This document shows, piece by piece, positions 10,144 through 26,953 of a stretch of DNA of 64,000 nucleotides (the first letter of the stretch is position 1; the number at the start of each line of letters is the position of its first letter). Under the pieces are notes generated by a model. It worked only from the letters and a program-made list of their open reading frames with translations. It did no database searches and had not been told where the DNA came from. This DNA comes from Acidobacteriota bacterium. GTDB taxonomy: Bacteria > Acidobacteriota > Blastocatellia > UBA7656. The DNA is taken from positions 124,001 through 188,000 of the forward strand of contig JBFMDH010000012.1 of NCBI GenBank assembly GCA_040754075.1. The letters run 5' to 3'. The translations under genes and the position numbers were made by a program.

Positions 10144-12654
10144 ATGATAGGACAATCGGTTGAGGAAACGGTGCCTGCACAAAGATCGAAAAAATTCGCC
10201 CCCCTTTCTTTGCAGGAATATAAACAGCTTTGCGCGTACATTGAAGAGCAACCTGCTACGGAAAGTGAATTGGTTGATGCGCTCAGCCAGTTGCAGGAAT
10301 TTCCAGCAATCACCTGGGTTGCCATTTATATTGGGATTCTCGACAGGTTTTTAGAGGAACCCTTTTGGGATGTACCGCAAATTCATCTGGTAAGAGATGC
10401 AATTGATGAATGGCTCTCTTGTCCATGTGATTTTCATTTACAACAGGCTGTTTGGGTTTGTCGTAATAACATAGAAATTTTCAATGATGATAAAATTTCG
10501 TATGTCGGGCAGGTCATTACCACCAATCTTGCAACCCTGTTCAATGACAAAGGACAGGTTAATCCGTTGATGGATGCAACCTCACTTTTTGAGGTTTTAT
10601 CTTTTATTGACACTCAATCGGTTTGGCAATCCATTGTTACTCGGTTGCGATGTTTAGAGTTTATGGATGTAGTTATCGAACAACCTTCACCGGAAGAGGC
10701 TGCTAAGGAAACCCCAAAAAGAGAAGGCAGTTCCTTCTCGGTTGCCGCTATGGTTGGCAGGTCCCGCCCCAATCAAATTTTGCCGAGATTCGGCGTGCGC
10801 GCCCGACAAATCGCCCTGCTCACCTTATTTGTCGCCGTTATCACCCTGATTATCACCGTGGCAAATATCGCCAGCATGACCAAGGTGATCATTAATCGCA
10901 ACTATAAAGAAGCCGAACAACTGGCGAATCAAATTAAAGCGGCGATTCAACAAGACCTGAATCGAAACTCCCTGAATGATTTCGGCGACCCTTATGCCAT
11001 GCTTGCCGGAGAAAACACCAGTACACGTGGCTTGATGGTTTCTACCTTAATCAACACCAGACCCATTGCCTACCTTTACCTGACGGATAATGAAGGGCGA
11101 TTTATCAATGATGTCGAAGGTCGAGATGCCCTGCTAATTAACGCCCATGCAATTGGCGACGCCAATGAAGTGCGACCGGATTTATCCGGTTTTGTGAAAG
11201 AAAATGCTTATCAGCAATTAATTCACGTTTTCGGCAAACAACCAATTTATCAATTCAACAAGCCGGTAACCGTGGACAACCCCAATACCGGTGAACCATT
11301 TGATTTGGGGCTATTGCATATCGGCGTTTCTTCGCTCCAGATTCGGAATGAATTATTTGAACCGATTAAAACCAATTTATTAATCGGACTGTTGGCGATT
11401 GTCGCCACCGGAATTATTGCGACGATTTCGGCAAACACCTTACTACGCCCGCTTGAAGTGATTTCCAGCAGTATCGAAAAACTCGGGTCACAGGAAAATC
11501 CCAGCGAGGATTTTCACGCGAAAAATATGCCGCACGATGATGTCGTTACAGGGGTGACCGCGCGGTTGAAACAATTGGGCGCAAGGCTTGCCGGAGAACG
11601 CGAAGAATTGGAAATCATGCGCGGGCGATTGCGCCAGGTGGTCAATCACCTGGAAGACCGCTTGATTTTGATTAATCGTGAAGGTCGGGTGATTTTGGCA
11701 AGCCCTGATGCCGAGCGTTTATTGGGCGTAAAAGATGTCGAACTCACGGGATTGCCGATTGATGAATCATTAGGCGCGCGTCACCCGTTGGTCGGTTTAG
11801 TTGAACGCTCTCTGAATGAACGGCGTTCGATTGCCCGAACTACCATTAAAGCCCCGGACGATCCGGCACAGCGACAGGTTCTGGCTTCCGTGCAATATAT
11901 CGAAGATGCGGGAAGTCCGGTTGGCGTGCTCGTGGGGCTTCGTGATTATGAGTCTTATCAGAAATTTGAATCGCAATGGGATTTATCGAAAAAGTTAGCC
12001 GATTTGGGGCGCATCACTTCGGGCATTGCCCACGAAGTGAAGAACCCGCTCAATGCGATGGTCATTCATTTAGAAATTCTGCGCTCCAAAATTGAAACCG
12101 GAACTCACGATACCAAACCGCAGTTGGAAATTCTCGATTCGGAAATCAAGCGGCTGGATAGGGTCGTGCAAACCTTTTTGAATTTCACCCGCCCGGTTGA
12201 AATCCGCCTCGAACCGCTCGATATTAATCTCATCATTAATCAGGTGGTGGCGCTTGCTTCAATGGAAGCCGCCGAAAGAGGCGTCACCATCAATAAACAA
12301 CTTTCACCGGGAAAATTAATGATCAAAGGCGATTCGGATTTACTGAAACAAGCGATGCTCAATGTAATTTTGAATGGCTGTCAGGCGATGCCCAAGGGCG
12401 GGCTGCTGGAAATTAAAACCCTGCCCTATGATGAAGAGAAGGTCTGCATTCTGGTAAAAGACCGTGGGATTGGCATACCGGTTGAAGCGCGTGAACGCAT
12501 CTTTAATCTCTACTACACCACCAAACAGGGCGGAACCGGCATCGGCTTGGCACAGGCTTTCCGGGCAATTCAGTTGCACAACGGCACCATCAGTTTCGAC
12601 AGTGAAGTCGGAAAAGGCACGACCTTTGAAATCATTCTCCCTTCATTGGAATAG
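10144..12654 (+). CDS. Membrane sensor histidine kinase paired with the 8699 regulator
   Basis: 836 residues. The first 190 residues form an unusual helical cytosolic domain that I do not recognise. TM1 lies at about 222-245 and is followed by a periplasmic sensor domain of about 160 residues and TM2 at about 415-440. Then come a HAMP segment, a PAS domain (LEDRLILINREGRVILASPDAERLLG), a HisKA with the phospho-His in GIAHEVKNPLNAM and a HATPase (NGCQAMPKGG, GIGIPVEARERIF, GGTGIGLA). All kinase boxes are intact. Its position directly after an NtrC gene makes that regulator the likely partner. The large N-terminal extension before the first TM is uncommon for this class. Confidence 0.93.
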   Translation: MIGQSVEETVPAQRSKKFAPLSLQEYKQLCAYIEEQPATESELVDALSQLQEFPAITWVAIYIGILDRFLEEPFWDVPQIHLVRDAIDEWLSCPCDFHLQQAVWVCRNNIEIFNDDKISYVGQVITTNLATLFNDKGQVNPLMDATSLFEVLSFIDTQSVWQSIVTRLRCLEFMDVVIEQPSPEEAAKETPKREGSSFSVAAMVGRSRPNQILPRFGVRARQIALLTLFVAVITLIITVANIASMTKVIINRNYKEAEQLANQIKAAIQQDLNRNSLNDFGDPYAMLAGENTSTRGLMVSTLINTRPIAYLYLTDNEGRFINDVEGRDALLINAHAIGDANEVRPDLSGFVKENAYQQLIHVFGKQPIYQFNKPVTVDNPNTGEPFDLGLLHIGVSSLQIRNELFEPIKTNLLIGLLAIVATGIIATISANTLLRPLEVISSSIEKLGSQENPSEDFHAKNMPHDDVVTGVTARLKQLGARLAGEREELEIMRGRLRQVVNHLEDRLILINREGRVILASPDAERLLGVKDVELTGLPIDESLGARHPLVGLVERSLNERRSIARTTIKAPDDPAQRQVLASVQYIEDAGSPVGVLVGLRDYESYQKFESQWDLSKKLADLGRITSGIAHEVKNPLNAMVIHLEILRSKIETGTHDTKPQLEILDSEIKRLDRVVQTFLNFTRPVEIRLEPLDINLIINQVVALASMEAAERGVTINKQLSPGKLMIKGDSDLLKQAMLNVILNGCQAMPKGGLLEIKTLPYDEEKVCILVKDRGIGIPVEARERIFNLYYTTKQGGTGIGLAQAFRAIQLHNGTISFDSEVGKGTTFEIILPSLE

Positions 12655-16213: not shown

Positions 16214-17506
16214 TCAGTTTATGCTGGTTTTCTCTGCCAAAGGTTTTGTTTGAGCGGTTATTTTTTTCCAAGGGCATTCCAGTTGGGGTTGCTCCTGCCT
16301 TAACCTCTCGACCAACCATCTGGCGCTGGCAATTAACCAGACAATGACTGAAAGCGCAGCAAAGAGAAAGACTCCGCGATAGCCTCGCAATGGGTCTTCG
16401 GCGGTTCGCAAAACCACAGAGAGAATGCCAGCCATCATCGGACCCAACAACATCCCCAAACATCCTGCGGAATTCACCAGCGCCATCACCTGAGTGCGCT
16501 CTTCCGGCACTGCCAGTTCTGAAGCATACGCCAGTGTCGGCGCATAAATCATCGAAGAGGCTGCACCGGCGGCAATCATAACTATGGGTAGCAGTGCGGG
16601 CGATACATGACCGAGTAAAGCGAGCGCCACAGCGTAAATTGCTCCACCGGTCACCAGGATGAGCGAACGGGCGAGGCGATCAGACCAATGTCCGATGGGA
16701 TACATCGATAAAGCGAACGTGAAGGTGAGAAGCGCAAATAATAAACCAATATTGCGGTCACTCATTTCGTAAGCGCGATGGGCAAACAGCGAGAAGGTGA
16801 CGATGATACAACCCACGGTAAATCGTTCGATAAACGCTGCACAAATCGGCACGATAAGCGCCCGGCGTTTTTTTAATACCGAGAATGGCGAAGTTTTGAA
16901 CGAGTGCTGTGATGCACCGAATCGCTTGTTCGACATCATCGAAGCGACGCCAATCGAAGCAAGGATGACGCTGCCGAGCCAGAAGGGAACTCGCGGGTCG
17001 ATGGTTGTTGTGAGTCCGCCGATAGCGTTGCCCAAAGCAACGGCTGAGATAATTGCGGCACCGGCAATTCCCATGATGCGTCCACCACTGTGCCGGTGGC
17101 TGACCGTCGATGCTTGTGCCAGTAGTATGGTTGCTGCACCAACGTGCGTTGCACCTTCAAGAAATCTCAGGAATAGAACTACAGTTGTCGAAATCGGACA
17201 AGCCACAGCCAGTAATAAAAGGGCATCGCTCAATGTAAGAACCGCCAGGATTTTACGAGGGCTACCCCCTTTGATAAACCACATACTCATCAATGGAGCA
17301 GCGATGGCAGCGCCGAGCATATTGATTCCCATAAATGCATGCATTGCGCCTTCGTTGCTTGCATGATACTGAGCAAATAATGGGCGAATAGCCGGAGCCA
17401 CCAGCGTAGCCGGAAGCATCTGGAAGAAAATCGTGATTGCCAGTGGCATCAGGTTTTGCGCAGATGAGGGTTTGGGGTCTGAGAGATTTTCAAAATGCGC
17501 TTTCAC
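16214..17506 (-). CDS. MFS transporter, last gene of the GTPase/phosphatase operon
   Basis: 430 residues with about twelve hydrophobic segments and MFS features: MWFIKGGSPRKILAVLTLSDA around the loop 2-3 motif, RFLEGATHVGAA in TM4, and PIGHWSDRLARSLIL as the second-half equivalent. It is most like drug or small-solute exporters, and the substrate cannot be read from sequence. It starts with GTG, overlapping the TGA of the ABC-phosphatase gene by four bases (GTGA), so translation is coupled. An exporter fixed to a signalling cassette could release or take up the signal or product of the cassette, but this is speculative. Confidence 0.88.
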   Translation of the reverse strand: MKAHFENLSDPKPSSAQNLMPLAITIFFQMLPATLVAPAIRPLFAQYHASNEGAMHAFMGINMLGAAIAAPLMSMWFIKGGSPRKILAVLTLSDALLLLAVACPISTTVVLFLRFLEGATHVGAATILLAQASTVSHRHSGGRIMGIAGAAIISAVALGNAIGGLTTTIDPRVPFWLGSVILASIGVASMMSNKRFGASQHSFKTSPFSVLKKRRALIVPICAAFIERFTVGCIIVTFSLFAHRAYEMSDRNIGLLFALLTFTFALSMYPIGHWSDRLARSLILVTGGAIYAVALALLGHVSPALLPIVMIAAGAASSMIYAPTLAYASELAVPEERTQVMALVNSAGCLGMLLGPMMAGILSVVLRTAEDPLRGYRGVFLFAALSVIVWLIASARWLVERLRQEQPQLECPWKKITAQTKPLAEKTSIN

Positions 17507-18621
17507 AATTGCTTCCTTCCCTGGGTTGAGGTTTGTTCAGCAAAACGTCTAATGAATGCTTCCTGGGAGCGATTCTGTATATATCCACGAGCCACTGAGC
17601 GAACCTGCTCAATAGCCTTTTCAGGTGCATAGCCAATCCATACCAGATAGGCGGCTAGCATCGTCCCGGTGCGCCCCATGCCGGCTTGGCAATGCAACGC
17701 GACGCCTTCTCCATTAGCGATGACCTTTTCAATATCCCGGCAAAGCCTAGCCGCCGGACTGATGGCTGGAATTCCCATGTCTTTGATGGGGAAATGTCTT
17801 CCCCTCATCCCAAATGATTTGAGCTGGGGAAGTGGAAATGGCTCTTCGGTAAGCGATACCACGAGTTTGATGCCGGACTGTGCAATCGCTGTCAGGTCTT
17901 CATCCGCATCACCAAGCAATCCGGGGCGACCCATCCCGGCAAGCTGGTGACGAATGAGCCAATTGAAATGCGACGGCAATGGCGGATTTGGTGGGGGATA
18001 TGAACAGTTGCCCTGTTCGAGAAATCGCGCGATTAGCTCATTAGGTGGATGATTGAAAAAGGTGTCAGCATCAGCACTAATGAGCAAATGTTTACCATAT
18101 AGAAATGCTACATCATCGGCTATTGAGCGGGCGAAATCGAGATGATGCGTGACCACAACAGCAGCGCCCTGGGTTTTATGATGGTTTATGCGATTAACCA
18201 ATTCTGCAATGCTTTCCGCCGTCTCTCCAACCGTCGGTTCATCCAACAGTAGAGTTTTCGCCCCGGATTGAAATACGCTGTCCCAATTTCTTTGGAATTG
18301 CCCGGTAAGTGAGGGAGTGGCAACGAAATTGGCTGACTTTAATTGGCGGAGCCGGAAGATGTCACAGGTTAGGAGATGATTAAGTGGCATTTGCTGAAAA
18401 TCGATTGATTTATAATACCAATCTCCCCAAAGCTTCCACCTCAGCTTGACGGTTTCGCCGCTCAAGGCTTTCAACAAAGAGCTTTTGCCAGTTCCTCCCG
18501 GACCGAGAATGACTGTCGTAGCCCGGTTTTGCACCTGCCAATTTATCGCACCACAGATCAAGCCCTCCGGTCCTTCAATTTCACCATTACAAATCTCATA
18601 CAATTTTGTGTGCTGAAACAT
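17503..18621 (-). CDS. Fusion of an ABC-type ATPase domain and a dual-specificity protein phosphatase
   Basis: 372 residues. Residues 1-205 are an ABC-type nucleotide-binding domain: Walker A GPGGTGKS near residue 39, Walker B TLLLDEPT near 150 and an H-loop VVVTHHLDF. The LSGGQ signature expected before Walker B is missing; that position reads DSVFQSGAK. Residues 225-365 are a DSP/PTP-type phosphatase: NWLIRHQLAGMGRPG, LVVSLTEEPFP, a general-acid Asp candidate in IKDMGIPA, and the P-loop HCQAGMGRTG with catalytic Cys and Arg (CX5R). Start and stop are fused to both neighbours (TAATG and GTGA overlaps). I know of no described family with this pairing, and the gene product is unnamed. Confidence 0.85.
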   Translation of the reverse strand: MFQHTKLYEICNGEIEGPEGLICGAINWQVQNRATTVILGPGGTGKSSLLKALSGETVKLRWKLWGDWYYKSIDFQQMPLNHLLTCDIFRLRQLKSANFVATPSLTGQFQRNWDSVFQSGAKTLLLDEPTVGETAESIAELVNRINHHKTQGAAVVVTHHLDFARSIADDVAFLYGKHLLISADADTFFNHPPNELIARFLEQGNCSYPPPNPPLPSHFNWLIRHQLAGMGRPGLLGDADEDLTAIAQSGIKLVVSLTEEPFPLPQLKSFGMRGRHFPIKDMGIPAISPAARLCRDIEKVIANGEGVALHCQAGMGRTGTMLAAYLVWIGYAPEKAIEQVRSVARGYIQNRSQEAFIRRFAEQTSTQGRKQL

Positions 18622-19370
18622 TATCGTCCCTCTCTCAATCGCTCAGCCAGCGTACCGGGCAAACAGGCATTTGCGATAGATTTTGCGGTAGCTTCGATGT
18701 CATAGGCGACTCGATGAATTTCCACCTGGCGGGCGGCAATATCAATAATTGCAAATGCCGCGCGCGAGTCGCCGTCGCGCGGTTGTCCAACCGAACCGGG
18801 ATTGATGAGCACAGCCCGTGCCGATGCAGGCCAATTCAGCGTTTTGTCAGGTTTGCATTCGACAATTTTTCCCTGATCCAACCACCCGACCATCGGCGTA
18901 TGAGTGTGACCGCATAACCCGATATGCGGCCAGCCTTCTCTTGCAAGAATGGCGTTGAGATTAGCTTCCAACATGGTTCCGGTTACATAACCGGTTATAT
19001 GCGTGTCATTGAGATAACATCCATGCACAGCAACGAACCCTTCAGGGTCAATGATGCGGTTGGGCAGATTCGCCAAATAAGCACGGTCATCGGATGAGAG
19101 TTGGCTGCGTGTCCAGGCTTGGATTAAGTGGGCTGTGGAATGAGTGCCAGGGGCTTGGGAAATCCCCGCAACGTCATGGTCATGATTTCCGGCGACGACG
19201 ATCTGACATCGAGTCCGAATCAGGTGAATGCATTGCGCAGGTTCCGCATTATAACCAACCAAATCACCAAGACAGACCATTCGGTCGATGCCCAAATGAC
19301 TGATGGCGTCAAACACCGTTTCAAGCGCGCTTAGGTTTGCGTGAACGTCAGCTAAGATGGCGATTCTCAT
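18621..19370 (-). CDS. Metallophosphoesterase (YfcE/MPP-like)
   Basis: 249 residues from ATG 19370. The frame is open for another 414 bp upstream, but that part lies inside the GTPase gene and has no protein-like pattern. The two-metal phosphoesterase motifs are complete: LADVHANLSALE (D-x-H), CLGDLVGYNAEP (GD), VVAGNHDHD (GNH), VHGCYLND and LCGHTHTP (GHxH), then INPGSVGQPRDGD. Such enzymes hydrolyse phosphomono- or phosphodiesters, some acting on phosphoproteins or cyclic nucleotides. The start codon lies 1 bp after the GTPase-kinase stop and the TAA overlaps the next ATG, so it is translationally coupled on both sides. Confidence 0.92.
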   Translation of the reverse strand: MRIAILADVHANLSALETVFDAISHLGIDRMVCLGDLVGYNAEPAQCIHLIRTRCQIVVAGNHDHDVAGISQAPGTHSTAHLIQAWTRSQLSSDDRAYLANLPNRIIDPEGFVAVHGCYLNDTHITGYVTGTMLEANLNAILAREGWPHIGLCGHTHTPMVGWLDQGKIVECKPDKTLNWPASARAVLINPGSVGQPRDGDSRAAFAIIDIAARQVEIHRVAYDIEATAKSIANACLPGTLAERLREGR

Positions 19371-19371
19371 C

Positions 19372-21222
19372 TCACGAATTCCCTTGGTACTGACCGTGTG
19401 AAATCGTTTTTGCCAGCCGACGGCGGGCAAGTTTTGCCGTGTCGGTTCGCACCAGTACCTGTTCAATGGCGCGCTCCAAATCAAGGGCTTCAACGTCCTG
19501 CCCTGATATACGAGATTGGAGCAGCCCGCCGAGGGCTTCGACATAGGCATAAATGGCTCTATCGTATTGGGCGTATTCCTCAACGCGATGCAGCATGGCG
19601 TAACCAATCGAAGGAAGATAATTTCCTTCAACGATGTCATCGTCGAGATAAACAACTTGTCCATCAATGATGGCGAAGTTACTAGGATGAACATCAAGGG
19701 CGATATTTCTGCGTGCAGCCAGAAGCAGCGAATCGACAATCGCATCGGCATATTTAACCAGCGCCGCAGCCAGCGCGTCTTCATCGTTTTCTTCGCAGGC
19801 TTCGTTCATCTCGGCTCTCAGAGTGACCACCCAGGGAGCCACCGTCCACAGCCAATAGGTTTGGTTATTATCCGGTTGAATGGAGACCACAGTATCGCCA
19901 AGCGCAAAGTGATGGAGAGAGAGTTTCGCTCTGGCGAGATGCAGTAAAGCGCTGCGAGCTGCATCGCTCGATTTGAAACCTCTTCTTGATGAGGTCTTCA
20001 AACACCATTGACCGGCTTGAAAAATAAAAACATCCGATTTGCCGCTGCCATCAAGATGCCCGCGTTGAGAGATAAGGTCGTCCCTCAATGACGGTATTTC
20101 CGTCGCCAACTCTCGCAAAATTTCCCGACCGGATGCGGGCCAGATGAACCCGCTCGGCACTTCACCGGTTGGCAACGGGGGCCAGTGAACGGTGGGATAA
20201 GATGTGAATTGCGGATGAAATTCGGGCGTCAGGTTTTCCAGATTTTCCCTGATGATAGTCGGGTCTAAAAGTGTTGCAGACCATTCGCTGGCTTGAACAA
20301 AACTGCTGGTTTCGACTACCGGCAAAACAGATTGAGAGTCGATTATTTCTACCGGCTCGCTTTCTTGCGCAGTATTCTCGCAACCTTCGTCGCTTTCTTG
20401 CGCAGTATTCTCGCAACCCTCGGCGCTTTCTTGCTCATGGTTCAATTGGTCAGGCGTTTCGCACTCCGTTGCGAGTGTTACGCTTGATTCAATCTCGTGT
20501 TCATCGTTTAGCGAAATTGGTTGAGCGGGCGTTTGTTCTTCTATCACCGGTTGCTTAAACCCATTGTATAAAACATCGCATTCGACCATCTGGCTATAAA
20601 GTTGATCTTTGGTTTCGGAAATCCCCACAATGCTTTCCAATCCGTGTTCAAGGATGGTTTGCTGCGTCAGGGTAGCTGCCGCTCTGATGGCAAGCACCAC
20701 GGTCTCACGCACCCCGATGCCTTCTTGGGCGCAAGCTGACACGATTGATGTGGTTTCTTCAAGCCCCAATTGGTTTAGCAATTCATTGGCTGGAAGTGAA
20801 TCGACTAAATCCTGTTTATTAGCCTGGACAACCAGTGGTATATCGCTGCCGATAATGGTGAGCAGGTTGTGAATCGCTTGTTGATTGTTTTCAAGTTCGC
20901 TCGGAGTTGAATCGCAGACGAAGACCACGACATCGGCAGTCTGCAAAAGATATTTGCGTCGTTCGTTGAAGATTTGCTGACCGGGAACCGTCAACAGTTG
21001 ACAACGCAACCCGTATCCGCCAACAACCCCGCCTTCCACCTGAAGCCAATCAAAGAAAAGCGTTCTTCCGCCCATCTCTTCCGGGACGTACAATTCACTG
21101 CGACGCATCTTGGTAAAAAATTTGCAGAGTTGCTGAAGGTTCGTGGTTTTCCCAGCTTTTCCCGGGCCATCATAAACCACTCTGACAATAACCTTCTGTT
21201 GGTCGCGATCAAAAATTGCCAT
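19372..21222 (-). CDS. MglA-like small GTPase fused to a kinase-like domain
   Basis: 616 residues. Residues 1-195 are a Ras-like GTPase of the MglA type: P-loop GPGKAGKTTNL, TVPGQQIFNERRKYLL in place of DxxG, and NKQD. Residues 215-340 are an acidic low-complexity linker that contains an 11-residue repeat. Residues 345-616 look like a distant protein/aminoglycoside kinase-type fold: a possible beta-3 Lys in WCLKTS, ALDVHPSNFAI as the D-x4-N catalytic loop, and VVYLDDD as the metal-binding Asp. The kinase assignment rests on these motifs only. Roadblock proteins, the usual regulators of MglA GTPases, are encoded just upstream, and phosphatase-type genes follow 1 bp after the stop. GGGAG precedes the ATG. 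Confidence 0.85.
   Translation of the reverse strand: MAIFDRDQQKVIVRVVYDGPGKAGKTTNLQQLCKFFTKMRRSELYVPEEMGGRTLFFDWLQVEGGVVGGYGLRCQLLTVPGQQIFNERRKYLLQTADVVVFVCDSTPSELENNQQAIHNLLTIIGSDIPLVVQANKQDLVDSLPANELLNQLGLEETTSIVSACAQEGIGVRETVVLAIRAAATLTQQTILEHGLESIVGISETKDQLYSQMVECDVLYNGFKQPVIEEQTPAQPISLNDEHEIESSVTLATECETPDQLNHEQESAEGCENTAQESDEGCENTAQESEPVEIIDSQSVLPVVETSSFVQASEWSATLLDPTIIRENLENLTPEFHPQFTSYPTVHWPPLPTGEVPSGFIWPASGREILRELATEIPSLRDDLISQRGHLDGSGKSDVFIFQAGQWCLKTSSRRGFKSSDAARSALLHLARAKLSLHHFALGDTVVSIQPDNNQTYWLWTVAPWVVTLRAEMNEACEENDEDALAAALVKYADAIVDSLLLAARRNIALDVHPSNFAIIDGQVVYLDDDIVEGNYLPSIGYAMLHRVEEYAQYDRAIYAYVEALGGLLQSRISGQDVEALDLERAIEQVLVRTDTAKLARRRLAKTISHGQYQGNS
20358..20434 (-). repeat. 33-bp in-frame tandem repeat in the GTPase-kinase linker
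   Basis: Two almost identical 33-bp copies (20358-20390, 20391-20423) and the first 11 bp of a third encode an 11-residue unit rich in Glu, Ser and Cys (ESDEGCENTAQ). The length is a multiple of three, so copy changes would shorten or lengthen the linker without a frameshift. Confidence 0.9.
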
Positions 21223-21370
21223 GCAAAGTGCTCCCGCTTATTTGAAATCATTGAGACAAAAGTAAAGGGGCTGATAAACATTAGCGGTCGGTAGTGACTC
21301 ACTCCACGAAGGACACTTGAACGAGCAGGAATTTTGCAGTGCCCCTCGTGAAGGGTGAGGCTGTCGAGGT

Positions 21371-21775
21371 TCAGGCTGCAGCTTCAACTGCTGCCATGCT
21401 GCCGCGAGCTTTGGTTATCACCATCCCGAGATTGGCGCTCGCGCGGCAGACCGTCACCAAAACCATATCCTCATTGCGTTTGGCTCGTTGAAAGACATGA
21501 ATCAGGTTGTCAGATAGGACAATGATTTCCTGAAAATAATGGTGCCCATCATCGCGAATTCCGCGCTGTTGTTTAAACAACCGTTCAACGGTGGTGACGT
21601 TGTTGCCCTGAAAGAGATCGCCGGTTGCTGCGGCAACCAGATCAAGGACTTCCTGCGGATGACTATCTACGGTTTTGATTCCCAGCAGCATCCCGGTTTT
21701 CATATCAACAAAACCGGCGGCAACACACTCCGGAACGTTTTTCTGCAAATTTGCAAGTTCAGCATCTAAACTCAT
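21371..21775 (-). CDS. Roadblock/LC7-like protein (third of three)
   Basis: 134 residues with the roadblock pattern: an N-terminal helix, VAAGFVDMKTGMLLGIKT (beta hairpin), a helix with VLDLVAAATGDLFQG, then HYFQEIIVLSDNLIHVFQRAKRNEDMVLVTVCRASANLGM. Roadblock (MglB-like) proteins dimerise and regulate Ras-like GTPases, commonly as GAPs. It is more divergent from the two upstream roadblock modules than they are from each other and ends in an Ala/Val tail. A GGAG sits 6 nt before the ATG. The GTPase-kinase gene starts 148 bp downstream. Confidence 0.85.
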   Translation of the reverse strand: MSLDAELANLQKNVPECVAAGFVDMKTGMLLGIKTVDSHPQEVLDLVAAATGDLFQGNNVTTVERLFKQQRGIRDDGHHYFQEIIVLSDNLIHVFQRAKRNEDMVLVTVCRASANLGMVITKARGSMAAVEAAA

Positions 21776-21833
21776 GTTGTCTCCTTTATCAGATTGAACA
21801 AATGGCTGTGGGGCAAGATATTCCCCTTATCAA

Positions 21834-22241
21834 TTAAGGAACCAGCGGTTCAATATCCGGCATAACTGATTTCAGTTGTGCCCAACCCATCCCGATATTG
21901 GTGGTCTTTTTGGTCACCAGCATGATTACCGCTTTGCCACCTTTTAGCGTCTTGGCAAAATGATAATTATGGATGGAGGTGATATGGACTTCTTCAAAAT
22001 AATGCTGGCCGTTTTCCGAAATCCCACGATGCGCCCGCACCATTTGTTCAATGCGCCCGATATTGGAACCGCGAAACATATCCATCGTTGCGGCTGCCAC
22101 AACTTCATTTAGCGTTTGAGTGTATTGCGAAGAATTATGGATTCCGAGCAACATCCCGGTATCGAGGTCAACCACTCCACAAGCCACCGCGCCGTCAACT
22201 TTATCTACGACACTTTTACATGCGTCATCAATCTTACCCAT
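21834..22241 (-). CDS. Roadblock/LC7-like protein (second of three)
   Basis: 135 residues, a single roadblock domain: VDGAVACGVVDLDTGMLLGIHN, VVAAATMDMFRG, RIEQMVRAHRG, HYFEEVHITS and a C-terminal IMLVTKKTTNIGMGWAQLKSVMPDIEPL. The last 30 residues closely match the C-terminus of the REC-DUF4388-roadblock protein encoded immediately upstream, which indicates recent duplication within the locus. It probably forms homo- or heterodimers with its neighbours to control the MglA-like GTPase. An AAGGAAA motif precedes the ATG. Confidence 0.88.
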   Translation of the reverse strand: MGKIDDACKSVVDKVDGAVACGVVDLDTGMLLGIHNSSQYTQTLNEVVAAATMDMFRGSNIGRIEQMVRAHRGISENGQHYFEEVHITSIHNYHFAKTLKGGKAVIMLVTKKTTNIGMGWAQLKSVMPDIEPLVP

Positions 22242-22331: not shown

Positions 22332-23519
22332 TTAAATGATTAGCGGCTCAAGAAGCGGCAACACCGATTTCAATTGCGCCCAACCTCTGCCGATATAGGT
22401 GGTTTTTTTGGTCACCAGAATAATGACTGCACGCCCGTTGCAGATGGTTTTGGCGAAGTGGAAATGATGTTTGGAGATGATATGAATCTCCTCAAAATAA
22501 TGTTTTCCATCTTCTTTCACGCCTCGATGCGCACGGGTCATCTGTTCAATTTGGCTGATCCGTGTGCCTCTGAATAAATCAACAGCGGCTACAGCAAAGA
22601 GTTGATTGAGGTTTTCGGTGAACGGCAGGGTGTTATGAATTCCCATCAACTGACCGGTTTCGAGATTGACAATCCCACAGATCACCGACCCATCAACGCG
22701 AGTGAGAATCTCTTTACAGGCTGTGCTTACCGTTTCTTGATTGACCCCGCTATTCGGATGATTTGCCGCCGGTTCATCTTCATTTTCGGATTCCCAATCC
22801 TCTTCAAGTTTTTCATCCAGTAACCGACACCCTTCCATGAGGAGTTCCTGCCAACCCAGGGTAATGCTTCGTTCCGTCGATACCTCGCCAGCATTCATTT
22901 TGAATTGACCGCCTTCCCAGGTGAGCAGATTGTAAAAGGCTTCTTCGCCGCATCGGTTTTGACACTCAGCATGGACAACGTTGCCACGCTCAAACCAAAT
23001 CATGCCGGATTCAGAACCTCTGGTGATCTCAAGCGCCCCGGTGGCATTTGCCAGCGCGTAGATTTGTACCAGGTCGGGAAGCATTGGCAACGAAATTGAG
23101 CCTGAAAATCCTTGATGTTTTGCCAGCGCCCGATTAATCGCCGCGAGAAACACTTCAAAGTCAAATGGTTTTTCCAAATACTCTATGGCGCCGCGCCGCA
23201 TCACCTCTTGTCGCACTTCCGGGGTGTTGTAAGCGGTGATGATGATGATCGGCAGATTGGCAACCACTTCACGCGCTTTTAAAGCGAGTTCCAAGCCGTT
23301 CATCCGTGGCATCCGAACGTCTGTGACCAAGAGATTGGGTGGCGACTGTCGGATTCGAGCGAGCGCCTCAACCGGGTCAACGAACCCCTCGAATTCGATA
23401 TCCGGACTTTCACGGACGAATTGCCTGGATATTGTCCAAACCAAGTGTTCCTCATCATCTACCATGACCACTCGACCTTTCATAGGTTTGCCTTGAATGC
23501 ATTCGATATGCCGAACCAT
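22332..23519 (-). CDS. REC-DUF4388(PATAN)-roadblock signalling adaptor
   Basis: 395 residues. A receiver domain at about 13-130 has its phospho-acceptor Asp in LLVTDVRMPRM and Lys in YLEKPFDF. A DUF4388/PATAN domain at about 145-245 reads LPDLVQIYALANATGALEI and MIWFERGNVVHAEC. A roadblock domain at about 265-395 reads VDGSVICGIVNLETGQLMGIHN. It would link phosphorelay input to GTPase control. An alternative ATG at 23483 would start directly at the receiver (MKGRVVMVDDEE); GAGAG precedes 23519 and AAGG precedes 23483, so the start is open. It lies 112 bp after the NtrC gene at 23632. Confidence 0.9.
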   Translation of the reverse strand: MVRHIECIQGKPMKGRVVMVDDEEHLVWTISRQFVRESPDIEFEGFVDPVEALARIRQSPPNLLVTDVRMPRMNGLELALKAREVVANLPIIIITAYNTPEVRQEVMRRGAIEYLEKPFDFEVFLAAINRALAKHQGFSGSISLPMLPDLVQIYALANATGALEITRGSESGMIWFERGNVVHAECQNRCGEEAFYNLLTWEGGQFKMNAGEVSTERSITLGWQELLMEGCRLLDEKLEEDWESENEDEPAANHPNSGVNQETVSTACKEILTRVDGSVICGIVNLETGQLMGIHNTLPFTENLNQLFAVAAVDLFRGTRISQIEQMTRAHRGVKEDGKHYFEEIHIISKHHFHFAKTICNGRAVIILVTKKTTYIGRGWAQLKSVLPLLEPLII

Positions 23520-23631: not shown

Positions 23632-24990
23632 TCAGGATGTGACCGGTTTAATTCCATACTCTCTCAGGTGTCGCCGCAAAGCGACTCTCGACATTGCCAG
23701 GATTGAAGCGGCGCGCGTGAGATTTTCACCGGTGCTTTTATAAGTTGCCAGGATATGCTGCTTGATGACCGCTTCAAGTGGAGAAGGGGTTGCGCAAGGG
23801 GATGGGAAGTTCGGTTTAAATTTCACCGCCCCGGATATTTCTATCGGCAGGTCGCACACCTTTATTTCCGCACCGCGAGCCAGCACCAGCGCGCGTTCGA
23901 TGACGTTTCTTAACTCACGAACATTACCGGGCCACGCATACTGTTCCAGTTTCTCAAGCGCATCTCGGGAAATTGACAGATGCGGCTTGCCGACCTCGCC
24001 GCGAAGTTTAGCGACGAAATGCAGCGCCAGACGCGAGATGTCACCCGTCCGCTTTCTCAAAGCAGGGAGATGGATTTCGATGACTTTAAGGCGATGGTAG
24101 AGGTCTTCTCTGAACCGCCCCAGTTTGACCTCTTCGGATAAATCGCGGTTGGTGGCTGAGATGATGCGCACATCGGAATGAATTTCTCTTTCACCCCCCA
24201 CTCTACGGAACGGATGACCTTCGAGCACTCTTAACAGTTTGGCTTGGATTTCACGCGGCAGTTCGGCTACTTCATCAAGAAATAATATTCCGCCGGAAGC
24301 GAGTTCAAATAATCCTCGACGGCTGTTCCGGGCATCCGTAAAAGCCCCGGCTTCGTGTCCGAATAACTCTGACTCAAGAAGTGTCGGCGGAAAGCAGGCG
24401 GCATTGACGGTGACAAATGATCCTGAAGCGCGTTTGCTTAAACCGTGAAGCAAACGCGAACAAACCTCTTTGCCGGTTCCGGTTTCGCCTGTAAGTAACA
24501 CCGGTGTGCGTGGCGCAGTTGCCGCCGCTTCAATCTCATTCACTGCCTGTCGCCATATGGGTGATTCGCCAATCGTTGCTGCCCGTTCAGTCTCCATGCG
24601 CTGCATAGCTTCAAGCAATCGCCGCAATGATGAATTCTCAATCGCCCGCGATACCACGTTAATCAGGACTTCGGAAGTAATCGGCTTGGTAAGATAATCG
24701 GTTGCCCCTAATCGCAAAGCTTTAACTGCGCTGGTGGCATTGTCACGACCGGTCAATACGACGACCGGACAAACCGCGTCCTCTTCCTTCAAAGTGGCGA
24801 GCACTTCCATGCCGTCAGCATCGGGCAATCCCAAATCCAGAAGCACTAAATCGAAAGTGGATTGAGAAACCGCTTCAAGAGCAGATGTGGCATCAGCGAC
24901 TACGCGAACCTCATAATGATAGCGCGATAGAATCGCGTTAAAGGCAAAGGCGAGGTCTTCGTCGTCCTCAATCAATAAAACAGATTTCAT
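23632..24990 (-). CDS. NtrC-family response regulator with variant GAFTDA loop
   Basis: 452 residues from ATG 24990, which begins directly with the receiver (MKSVLLIEDDEDLAFAF). The open frame reaches 25200 but that extra part overlaps the kinase gene and is not protein-like. Domains: REC (Asp in LVLLDLGLPD), AAA+ (GETGTGKE, GGILFLDEVAELP) and Fis-type HTH (LTRAASILAMSRVALRRHL). The sigma-54-contacting loop reads GAFTDA instead of GAFTGA, with ESELFGHEA before it intact. Its first 23 bases overlap the end of the kinase gene, so the two are coupled and form a cognate pair. Confidence 0.93.
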   Translation of the reverse strand: MKSVLLIEDDEDLAFAFNAILSRYHYEVRVVADATSALEAVSQSTFDLVLLDLGLPDADGMEVLATLKEEDAVCPVVVLTGRDNATSAVKALRLGATDYLTKPITSEVLINVVSRAIENSSLRRLLEAMQRMETERAATIGESPIWRQAVNEIEAAATAPRTPVLLTGETGTGKEVCSRLLHGLSKRASGSFVTVNAACFPPTLLESELFGHEAGAFTDARNSRRGLFELASGGILFLDEVAELPREIQAKLLRVLEGHPFRRVGGEREIHSDVRIISATNRDLSEEVKLGRFREDLYHRLKVIEIHLPALRKRTGDISRLALHFVAKLRGEVGKPHLSISRDALEKLEQYAWPGNVRELRNVIERALVLARGAEIKVCDLPIEISGAVKFKPNFPSPCATPSPLEAVIKQHILATYKSTGENLTRAASILAMSRVALRRHLREYGIKPVTS

Positions 24991-26953
24991 CTTCCTTTTC
25001 CCAGACCGGCAAAAATAAACTAAAAATGGTTTCAACCCCTGGAGTAGATGAGAGCAGCAAATGCCCGTGATTGCTCTCAACCAGACGTTGGGCGATTGAA
25101 AGCCCAAGACCTGTCCCCTTGGGTTTGGTTGTAAAAAACGGGTCGAAAACGTAGGGGATGAGGTCTTCGGCAATCCCCGTGCCGTCATCCTGGATGTCAA
25201 TGCGAATCATTTTGGCTCCGTGTTTCTTCAGGTTGAAAGCGACGGGTTCGCTGGAACCCGCGATGCGAATACGTGACGGCTCGCCGACTGAATCCAGGGC
25301 GTTTTCAATGAGCGTCAGCAGCACCTCGACAATCTGTCCTTCATCGACATAAGCCGATGGCAGATCGTCATTCATCTCGACAACCGGAGTAGTTGAATAA
25401 TCTTTAAATCGTGGGGCGAGAATATCGAGGGTGTTTTCGATTAGCGAAGCCGGATTGCAAATTTGTAATCGCGGAAGCTTAGGCTTGCCGAAATGCAGAG
25501 AGGTGGTGACCAGATGTTCGATTCGTTGAAGTAAAGAAAGCGACCGGCGAATATATTCCTGCCTGGGATCGGTCGGTTCGGTTTCAGCCATCAGGATTTC
25601 CGAAAGCGACCGCAGCGCGGCAAGCGGATTGCGAACTTCATGGGCAAACCCCGATGCCATGTGCCCTAGAGCGGTTAGCCGCTCAACTCTGCGCAATTCC
25701 ATTTCAATCTGGTGGCGACTGCTCAGGTCTCTGAATAAAAGCACGTAGCCGAATTCCGGCAGACGGGCATCTTTGGGCGCAATGATCGTCATACCGATAT
25801 CGAGTTTTCGCCTGCTCGAAGTCGTCAGTTCAAAATCAATGCGTTGCTCGCCGCTTTTTTCGGCTGCAAGCAACGCTTCCTGAAGCTTTTTATTTTTGCC
25901 AAAAACTTCGAGCACATCCTTTCCGAGTGACTGGGCAGAAGTCCCTTCGATGGTGCTTAGCGCCATGCGGTTGACGAATGAAATTAAGCCTTGCGGATTG
26001 GTGGTGATGATGCCTGCGGTAATCTCATCAAGGATGGTTTCGGTGAAGCGTCGGCGCTCTTTCATCGTATTAAATGCCAACTCCATTTCCTTTGTAAGAT
26101 TGGCAATATGTTGACGCTCGTTTTTTATTTCAGCCGCTTCTACCTGTGGCGTCACATCGGATATTAATACAGCTTGATGGGTGACGGGTTTTTTTGAATT
26201 CAAGACCGGGGTGATTTTTATATCTCCCCAAAAGGATGAACCATCTTTTCGATAAACTTTTGCCACCATCTGTTTATGGTTTTCGGTTAATCCTTTAAAA
26301 ACGGATTCATCTGCAAAGGCGCTGAAGAACCATTCATTGCGTCCAACCACATCCGCAGACGAATATCCGGTCAAGGTTTCAAATGCCTGATTTACTTCTA
26401 TAATTGGCAGGTTGCGAAAGCTGCGGTCAACGATAAGCATTGCTTCGCCCGCGTGAGTGAATAAGGTTTCCATTATCGACAACCGTAAAGCGGATTGCTT
26501 GCTTCGTAAAATGGTGTCGGCGCGATTTTGTAATAGAGCGGGAAATAAAGGGTAGGTTAGAAAATCATCCGCGCCTGCCTTCAAAAAATCATTGGGAGCG
26601 ATTTGCGTTTCAGTGCCGATAACCACAATGGCAGCCTTCTCACCAGAAGACAATAATCGAATCCTTTGACAAATGGATAAGGCATCAGCGGGCTTGATAA
26701 GCGAATCGACGATAACCAGATCAGGTTCAAGTCTACGAAAAAGTAATTCGACGTCATTGCCATCGGCAGCCTCAAACAGATGAAAAGTGTTTCCACTAAA
26801 AATGTGCCGTACCAATTCGCGAATTGAGGCATCGGTTATCGCCAGCAAGACAACTGTCTTGCCGGTGTTGGCTATTCTTTTCTCAGTTTTTTTCCGCATC
26901 GTCGTGAGCAGCTTATTACCCGTTGTTTTATCTTTAACTGAGAGATTATTCAT
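24968..26953 (-). CDS. Hybrid REC-PAS-PAS histidine kinase
   Basis: 661 residues, cytosolic. A REC-like domain at about 30-150 (LEPDLVIVDSLIKP; acidic pocket less canonical) is followed by PAS 1 at about 160-285, a coiled coil, PAS 2 at about 305-420, HisKA with FAHEVRNPLAALRSL near residue 440, and a HATPase to the end (ENALDSVGEP, DDGTGIAEDLIPYVFDPFF, GTGLGLS). All ATP-binding boxes are present. An N-terminal receiver before the sensor domains suggests it receives phosphoryl input from another kinase as well as sensing directly. It overlaps the start of the NtrC gene. Confidence 0.93.
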   Translation of the reverse strand: MNNLSVKDKTTGNKLLTTMRKKTEKRIANTGKTVVLLAITDASIRELVRHIFSGNTFHLFEAADGNDVELLFRRLEPDLVIVDSLIKPADALSICQRIRLLSSGEKAAIVVIGTETQIAPNDFLKAGADDFLTYPLFPALLQNRADTILRSKQSALRLSIMETLFTHAGEAMLIVDRSFRNLPIIEVNQAFETLTGYSSADVVGRNEWFFSAFADESVFKGLTENHKQMVAKVYRKDGSSFWGDIKITPVLNSKKPVTHQAVLISDVTPQVEAAEIKNERQHIANLTKEMELAFNTMKERRRFTETILDEITAGIITTNPQGLISFVNRMALSTIEGTSAQSLGKDVLEVFGKNKKLQEALLAAEKSGEQRIDFELTTSSRRKLDIGMTIIAPKDARLPEFGYVLLFRDLSSRHQIEMELRRVERLTALGHMASGFAHEVRNPLAALRSLSEILMAETEPTDPRQEYIRRSLSLLQRIEHLVTTSLHFGKPKLPRLQICNPASLIENTLDILAPRFKDYSTTPVVEMNDDLPSAYVDEGQIVEVLLTLIENALDSVGEPSRIRIAGSSEPVAFNLKKHGAKMIRIDIQDDGTGIAEDLIPYVFDPFFTTKPKGTGLGLSIAQRLVESNHGHLLLSSTPGVETIFSLFLPVWEKEDEICFID

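Follow-up and report, generated by a model that had tools for sequence, protein, structure and literature searches.

ATP hydrolysis by ABC ATPases takes place at the interface of two subunits, where each offers its LSGGQ signature motif to the ATP held by the other. Loss of the canonical signature is tolerated in ABC ATPases with degenerate sites, including heterodimeric exporters, MutS and OLD nucleases; in these cases one site of the two is lost, or the protein acts on DNA. Roadblock proteins such as MglB and Ragulator regulate Ras-like GTPases, and a wider role for them in NTPase regulation has long been predicted (Koonin and Aravind 2000, cited in PMC4316618).

The stretch of DNA analysed here (64,000 nucleotides, hereafter the window) encodes an ABC-type ATPase fused to a dual-specificity phosphatase (ABC-PTP fusion) in an operon with roadblock-like proteins (Table 1). 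The ABC half shares with PstB and related ABC-transporter ATPases (TIGR00972) the Walker A motif, the Walker B glutamate, the H-loop, a tryptophan preceding the signature and a C-terminal FF..P element. Unlike PstB, the family lacks LSGGQ, several members have a deleted or shrunken helical subdomain, a permease partner was not seen, the phosphatase is fused or adjacent, and the TIGR00972 score lies far under the cut-off. As in the MglA-MglB system and the actinobacterial conservons, a Ras-like GTPase and roadblock proteins share one operon in the window with a response regulator nearby, and the roadblock protein named here RLC_A has a predicted MglB-like fold. In contrast to those systems, the conserved partner of RLC_A is the ABC-type ATPase with its phosphatase and not a GTPase, and no CvnA- or CvnC-type gene was identified. 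The phosphatase half resembles DUSP23-like small dual-specificity phosphatases and PDB entry 25xa, with which it shares the CX5R loop and the acid aspartate and aligns over its full length, but those chains are stand-alone enzymes, whereas the family phosphatase is fused to or encoded beside an ABC-type ATPase. Unlike the degenerate-site ABC ATPases, the entire family described here is without the signature, and it is encoded with roadblock and phosphatase genes.

We conclude that the family is real and conserved, and we read it as a variant of roadblock/G-protein signalling in bacteria that has an ABC-type ATPase lacking the signature at its core. A previous reading of the window made from its letters and open reading frames (the sequence-only reading) knew of no described family with this pairing; we likewise found no paper on the fusion or on the module in the open-licence literature searched. 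A 2023 paper on the rhodanese-phosphatase superfamily may mention this phosphatase group.

Table 1. Features of the ABC-PTP locus in the window (window positions; residue numbers refer to the fusion protein)
Feature	Position	Strand	Remarks
ABC-PTP fusion gene	17503..18621	minus	one uninterrupted ORF, 372 aa, ATG start
Signature-less ABC-type ATPase half	18007..18621	minus	residues ~1-205
Walker A, GPGGTGKS	18481..18504	minus	residues 40-47
Shortened segment at the normal site of the helical subdomain and LSGGQ	18256..18351	minus	residues ~91-122; signature deleted
Walker B, TLLLDEP, with catalytic Glu (D127 E128)	18235..18255	minus	residues 123-129
H-loop, VVVTHH	18145..18162	minus	residues 154-159, the last being H159
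DSP-type phosphatase half	17527..17973	minus	residues 217-365
Phosphatase acid Asp, D281	17779..17781	minus	
Phosphatase P-loop, HCQAGMGRTG (C311, R317)	17665..17694	minus	residues 310-319
MFS transporter	16214..17506	minus	downstream; 4-base overlap with the fusion end (GTGA)
Calcineurin-like metallophosphoesterase	18621..19376	minus	upstream; one-base overlap with the fusion start (TAATG)
MglA-like GTPase (~residues 1-210) with C-terminal kinase-like D-x4-N...DD domain	19372..21222	minus	GTPase by profile
RLC_A, roadblock-fold protein (predicted), constant partner of the ABC-PTP pair	21371..21775	minus	
RLC_B, second roadblock-like protein	21834..22241	minus	
Response regulator with DUF4388 and C-terminal RLC_B-type domain	22332..23519	minus	

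The fused gene and its distribution

Profile searches placed the ABC half of the window protein at its N-terminus and the phosphatase half at its C-terminus. With Pfam, the ABC_tran match was confined to residues 25-57 (E 2.4e-6) and DSP/PTP families were found at residues 217-354 (best E 3.8e-24), the best phosphatase model being PF22785 (Tc-R-P, polymorphic toxin system); NCBIfam and PDB searches concurred with this arrangement. The nearest curated model for the ABC half was that of PstB (TIGR00972, E 1.3e-13), but the score of 50.9 bits against a cut-off of 343.2 leaves the protein outside PstB. Walker A, Walker B and the H-loop are present in the ABC half, as the sequence-only reading had claimed, and its report of HCQAGMGRTG with the CX5R pair was borne out; the acid aspartate D281 was also found, and the phosphatase half thus has a complete catalytic set. 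The fusion itself is genuine, being encoded in a single frame in the window and in-frame at all 23 loci where it was found.

A search for other fusions or neighbouring pairs of the two domains, which had been suggested as a check, yielded these 23 fused loci and 7 loci at which the ABC ATPase and the phosphatase are adjacent genes (split form), and hence a conserved family. The fusions occur in the window's own phylum and in Pseudomonadota: they comprise the window, L086, L087, L088 and L089, L011 and L012 (two MAGs labelled Lysobacterales), 14 loci of the order of L011, and L172 and L174, both of which came to light through RLC_A. In the order of L011, 15 of 200 genomes gave a match at E up to 1e-60, at 16 loci that include those of L011 and L012. 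The split form was found at L029, L090, L091, L092 (two loci), L093 and L170.

Among 396 genomes of the window's phylum, 12 matched the window protein at E up to 1e-10; three of these matches span both halves (window, G353 and G372) and the other nine are phosphatase-side. At the level of its class (162 genomes, E up to 1e-45), a match was obtained in 83 genomes, nearly always to the ABC half alone, and among the best 20 loci the phosphatase half was reached only in the window's genome and at one split locus (G668). No further fusion was detected by genome-wide search in the seven genomes of the window's family, its own included, nor was a second one seen among the matches listed for the 19 genomes of the order of G353. 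In the plasmid and phage collections, no record covered 80% of the fusion query, and the matches listed (20 of 96 plasmid records and all five phage records) were to the ABC half only. One genome of the phylum, G390 (94% complete), contains RLC_A and a family ABC gene, and no phosphatase match was found anywhere in it; regulation of the phosphatase by the ATPase, which the sequence-only reading had suggested, along with ATP sensing, as a possible role of the ABC half, can therefore explain the family only in part. In G390 (L164, 6374-7402), a 342-aa protein is encoded between RLC_A and the phosphatase-less ABC gene.

The signature motif and the residues kept by the family

The absence of the LSGGQ signature, claimed by the sequence-only reading, was confirmed, and alignment of the region before Walker B over homologues brought out no hidden motif. 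None of 31 family ABC domains (27 tabulated, plus L164, L170, L172 and L174 read by eye) has SGG in the signature, whereas 45 of 47 ordinary ABC ATPases from the same searches match the signature pattern, and the other two are near-matches on visual inspection, the first reading LSVGQ and the second being truncated just behind LSGG. As judged from these alignments, the signature loss is family-wide and specific. The segment is deleted in the window protein and in its nearest relative, L086, and the helical subdomain, the usual dock for a permease, is deleted or shrunk in both. Other members keep the segment before Walker B in a degenerate state, with forms that include LPIGT, LPIGA, LPLGH, QSMGI, LPLAD, LSLAD, LDLCE and LAAWY; the least degenerate, read by eye, are LSTVQ and LSPVQ in L172 and L174. 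The signature segment of the window protein is passed over by two profiles, one made from full-length relatives and the other from 23 PstB-like controls; their alignment to the protein stops near residue 73 and resumes near residue 119.

A faint look-alike within that segment, SLTGQFQR (residues 104-111), was rejected as a hidden signature. Its distance from Walker B differs by one residue from the usual one, the nearest relative does not share it, and it aligns N-terminal to the conserved W113, a tryptophan that in relatives precedes the signature.

Walker A and the Walker B Asp-Glu pair are present in 27/27 tabulated members, and G40, G45, K46, D127, E128 and H159 are invariant in an alignment of 28 sequences from two phyla. 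The phosphatase Cys, Arg and Asp (HCX5R loop and acid Asp) are likewise found in 30/30 aligned domains. The invariance of the Walker A lysine, the Walker B Asp-Glu and the H-loop histidine argues for selection on nucleotide chemistry. Because these cis residues (K46, D127, E128, H159) are invariant while the trans motif is lost throughout the family, the alignment suggests that nucleotide binding is still selected and that the partner is no longer another copy. In a tree of 72 ABC domains (28 family members and 44 controls), all controls fall beyond one branch (support 100/99), and the eight separate-gene forms (the seven split ones and L164) group together (support 99/95); the tree omits L012, which is near-identical to L011, and controls without a clear motif, its long branches drew a warning of false joins from the tool, and the controls were chosen by similarity to the query and do not span all ABC families.

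RLC_A and a proposed switch

RLC_A, a protein of 131-135 aa across loci, is in the locus at 26 of the 28 loci found through the pair (19/21 fused, 7/7 split), a count that leaves out L172 and L174 since these were found through RLC_A itself; it was found at 0/51 control ABC loci, whose flanks extend for only about 1.5 kb either way. The two loci without it are L011 and L012. Conversely, an ABC gene lies next door at 8/9 loci found through RLC_A alone. RLC_A and RLC_B types were told apart by separate profiles, and RLC-profile matches were obtained in 7 of the 396 genomes of the window's phylum. The family ABC gene is next door or in the same operon at all four RLC_A-type loci of that phylum (window, G353, G372, G390), and the phosphatase is at three of them. 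In Pseudomonadota, 34/398 genomes matched; of 30 loci inspected, five are of the RLC_A type, four of them beside an ABC-PTP fusion and the fifth an interrupted gene in the genome of L011, where the fusion is on another contig. RLC_A, which does not figure in the sequence-only reading, is at least as constant a partner of the ABC half as the phosphatase is.

RLC_A of the window matched no Pfam family, Robl_LC7 included, and Pfam and NCBIfam searches of the roadblock-like proteins gave nothing useful. In its AlphaFold model (pLDDT 74.7) the elements follow the roadblock order, alpha-beta-beta-alpha-beta-beta-beta-alpha, and the best Foldseek matches of the model are roadblock structures from Streptomyces and MglB from Thermus (E 1.7e-7, TM up to 0.73). 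Profile-profile comparison with true Robl_LC7 proteins gave a weak match in register (probability 40, E 2.9e-4). A roadblock/LC7 (MglB-like) fold is thus predicted for RLC_A from its model.

Genes of the RLC_A type were also seen away from the pair. A lone one, 60% identical in its best segment, is carried by the viral contig IMGVR_UViG_3300005330_000015 (119 kb; L204, 5001-5399), where it adjoins a gene that we read as portal-like and no ABC-PTP lies in the 10 kb read. On Ruegeria plasmids (L205 and L206, 5998-6399 in each), an RLC_A-like gene, scoring 111 bits against the RLC_A profile and 46 against that of RLC_B, has four genes of the dynamin family and a protein kinase as neighbours instead of the ABC pair.

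We propose, with about even confidence, that the family constitutes a non-transport, ATP-dependent switch that is regulated by a roadblock protein and gates a phosphatase within a bacterial G-protein module. The ABC half, kin of transporter ATPases, has kept the residues by which a single subunit holds ATP (Walker A, Walker B-Glu, H-loop) and given up LSGGQ, its loan to a partner subunit; it would bind ATP, and the usual two-subunit sandwich could not close on its own. RLC_A, probably dimeric like MglB, would dock on the ABC half and control its nucleotide state. We infer this regulation because no other additional neighbour is as constant as this protein with its predicted roadblock fold, and roadblock proteins are known to regulate Ras-like GTPases (PMC4316618); the linkage hints at a possible substitute for the signature that is no longer supplied in trans. 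The nucleotide state would in turn determine how active the attached phosphatase is or what it can reach, and the phosphatase would dephosphorylate a protein of the same module, be it the response regulator, the GTPase/kinase-like protein or the roadblock proteins. Several results speak against the proposal: G390 pairs RLC_A with the ABC gene and no phosphatase match, L011 and L012 have no RLC_A at the locus, the RLC_A-like gene of the Ruegeria plasmids stands apart from the ABC pair, and no GTPase was detected at the seven split loci. The AlphaFold model of the fusion is poor (pLDDT 52.7) and lends gating no structural support. More tentatively, and with somewhat less than even odds in our view, the family may form a new class of regulatory ABC-type ATPases that gave up LSGGQ, acquired a dedicated roadblock regulator instead and has a DSP phosphatase as output; the roadblock protein would then act on an ABC ATPase and not on a Ras-like GTPase. 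The linkage of one roadblock subfamily to an ABC-type ATPase, combined with the family-wide loss of an inter-subunit motif, makes the old prediction on NTPase regulation directly testable. If the proposal is true, a phosphatase output is added to the G-protein modules of bacteria, for which few outputs are known.

Other explanations were weighed against the roadblock-regulated switch. The ABC half could be a dead scaffold that no longer cycles ATP and merely holds the phosphatase by RLC_A and the GTPase; erosion of the signature, the D-loop and the helical subdomain and the long ABC branches fit such a role, which we nevertheless consider rather unlikely given that the Walker A lysine, Walker B Asp-Glu and H-loop histidine never vary in the aligned sequences of either phylum. 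Alternatively, the protein could be the degenerate one of two unlike subunits in an ABC heterodimer and take its signature in trans from an intact ATPase of the PstB type, as in some ABC exporters with unequal halves. PstB is indeed the nearest curated family, the family profile finds, through its ABC half, an ordinary ABC ATPase elsewhere in the genome (C28:31036-31782), and the Walker B glutamate and H-loop are kept, but a machine of this kind is unlikely where the permease-docking subdomain is deleted or shrunk (window and L086), the seven window genes scanned include no ABC permease, the gene constantly nearby encodes a roadblock protein instead of an ABC protein and the score stays so far under the PstB cut-off.

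A part in conflict, as a component of anti-phage defence or of a polymorphic toxin, would agree with the best phosphatase match (PF22785), with weak PADLOC matches to two ABC-type components, mad3 and mad8, and with the lone RLC_A gene of the viral contig. The neighbours of the fusion, however, read as signalling genes (response regulator, GTPase, roadblock). The seven window proteins scanned include no toxin, nuclease or immunity protein, and the PADLOC search for known anti-phage systems gave, besides mad3 and mad8, only a weak, motif-level match to AriA, with all matches confined to short ABC motifs; we regard this role as very improbable. That gene calling or assembly fused two neighbouring genes might be suspected from the split versions at seven loci, yet no stop breaks the single frame in the window or at any of 22 further loci, including two whose contigs measure 6.0 and 3.7 Mb. 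Such an artefact is next to impossible, and recurrence refutes it together with a chance fusion.

Operon neighbours and the RLC_B loci

A Ras-like GTPase was detected with our profiles near 16/21 fused loci and 0/7 split loci, and is therefore not an obligate part of the system. The MFS transporter gene is, by its position, probably co-transcribed with the fusion; it was not seen as a conserved part of the locus. A conserved kinase-like domain was read in the window (19372-20202, minus strand, fused there to the MglA-like GTPase), in L119 (1719-2510) and in L089 (9641-10618). The label is our own motif reading, from D-x4-N and DD spaced as in protein-kinase-like enzymes; Pfam gave no match to the domain, and no kinase was among 10 weak matches in a PDB profile search.

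The 25 other Pseudomonadota loci among the 30 inspected are of the RLC_B type, and all are without ABC-PTP; a metallophosphoesterase is present in 12/25 and a Robl_LC7 gene in 20/25. Each of the roadblock-like subfamilies is therefore linked to its own set of enzymes; RLC_A and RLC_B occur together in the window, L119 and L089.

A second module, composed of an RLC_B-type roadblock protein, a kinase-like protein and a metallophosphoesterase, was observed in the window (18621-22241), in L165, L166, L167 and L169, and in L176-L200; the last two components form one fused protein in several gammaproteobacterial loci. Genes that we read as ferredoxin/oxidoreductase-like directly follow the Robl_LC7 gene in the gammaproteobacterial loci L126 (9365-10903) and L175 (8-1015). 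In L011 (11063-12270), PAS-like and PhnD-like phosphonate-binding proteins are encoded after the GTPase and roadblock genes, and the order is alike in L012. In the window, genes read as histidine-kinase-like and sigma-54-type response-regulator-like flank the operon region (10144-12654 and 23632-25200).
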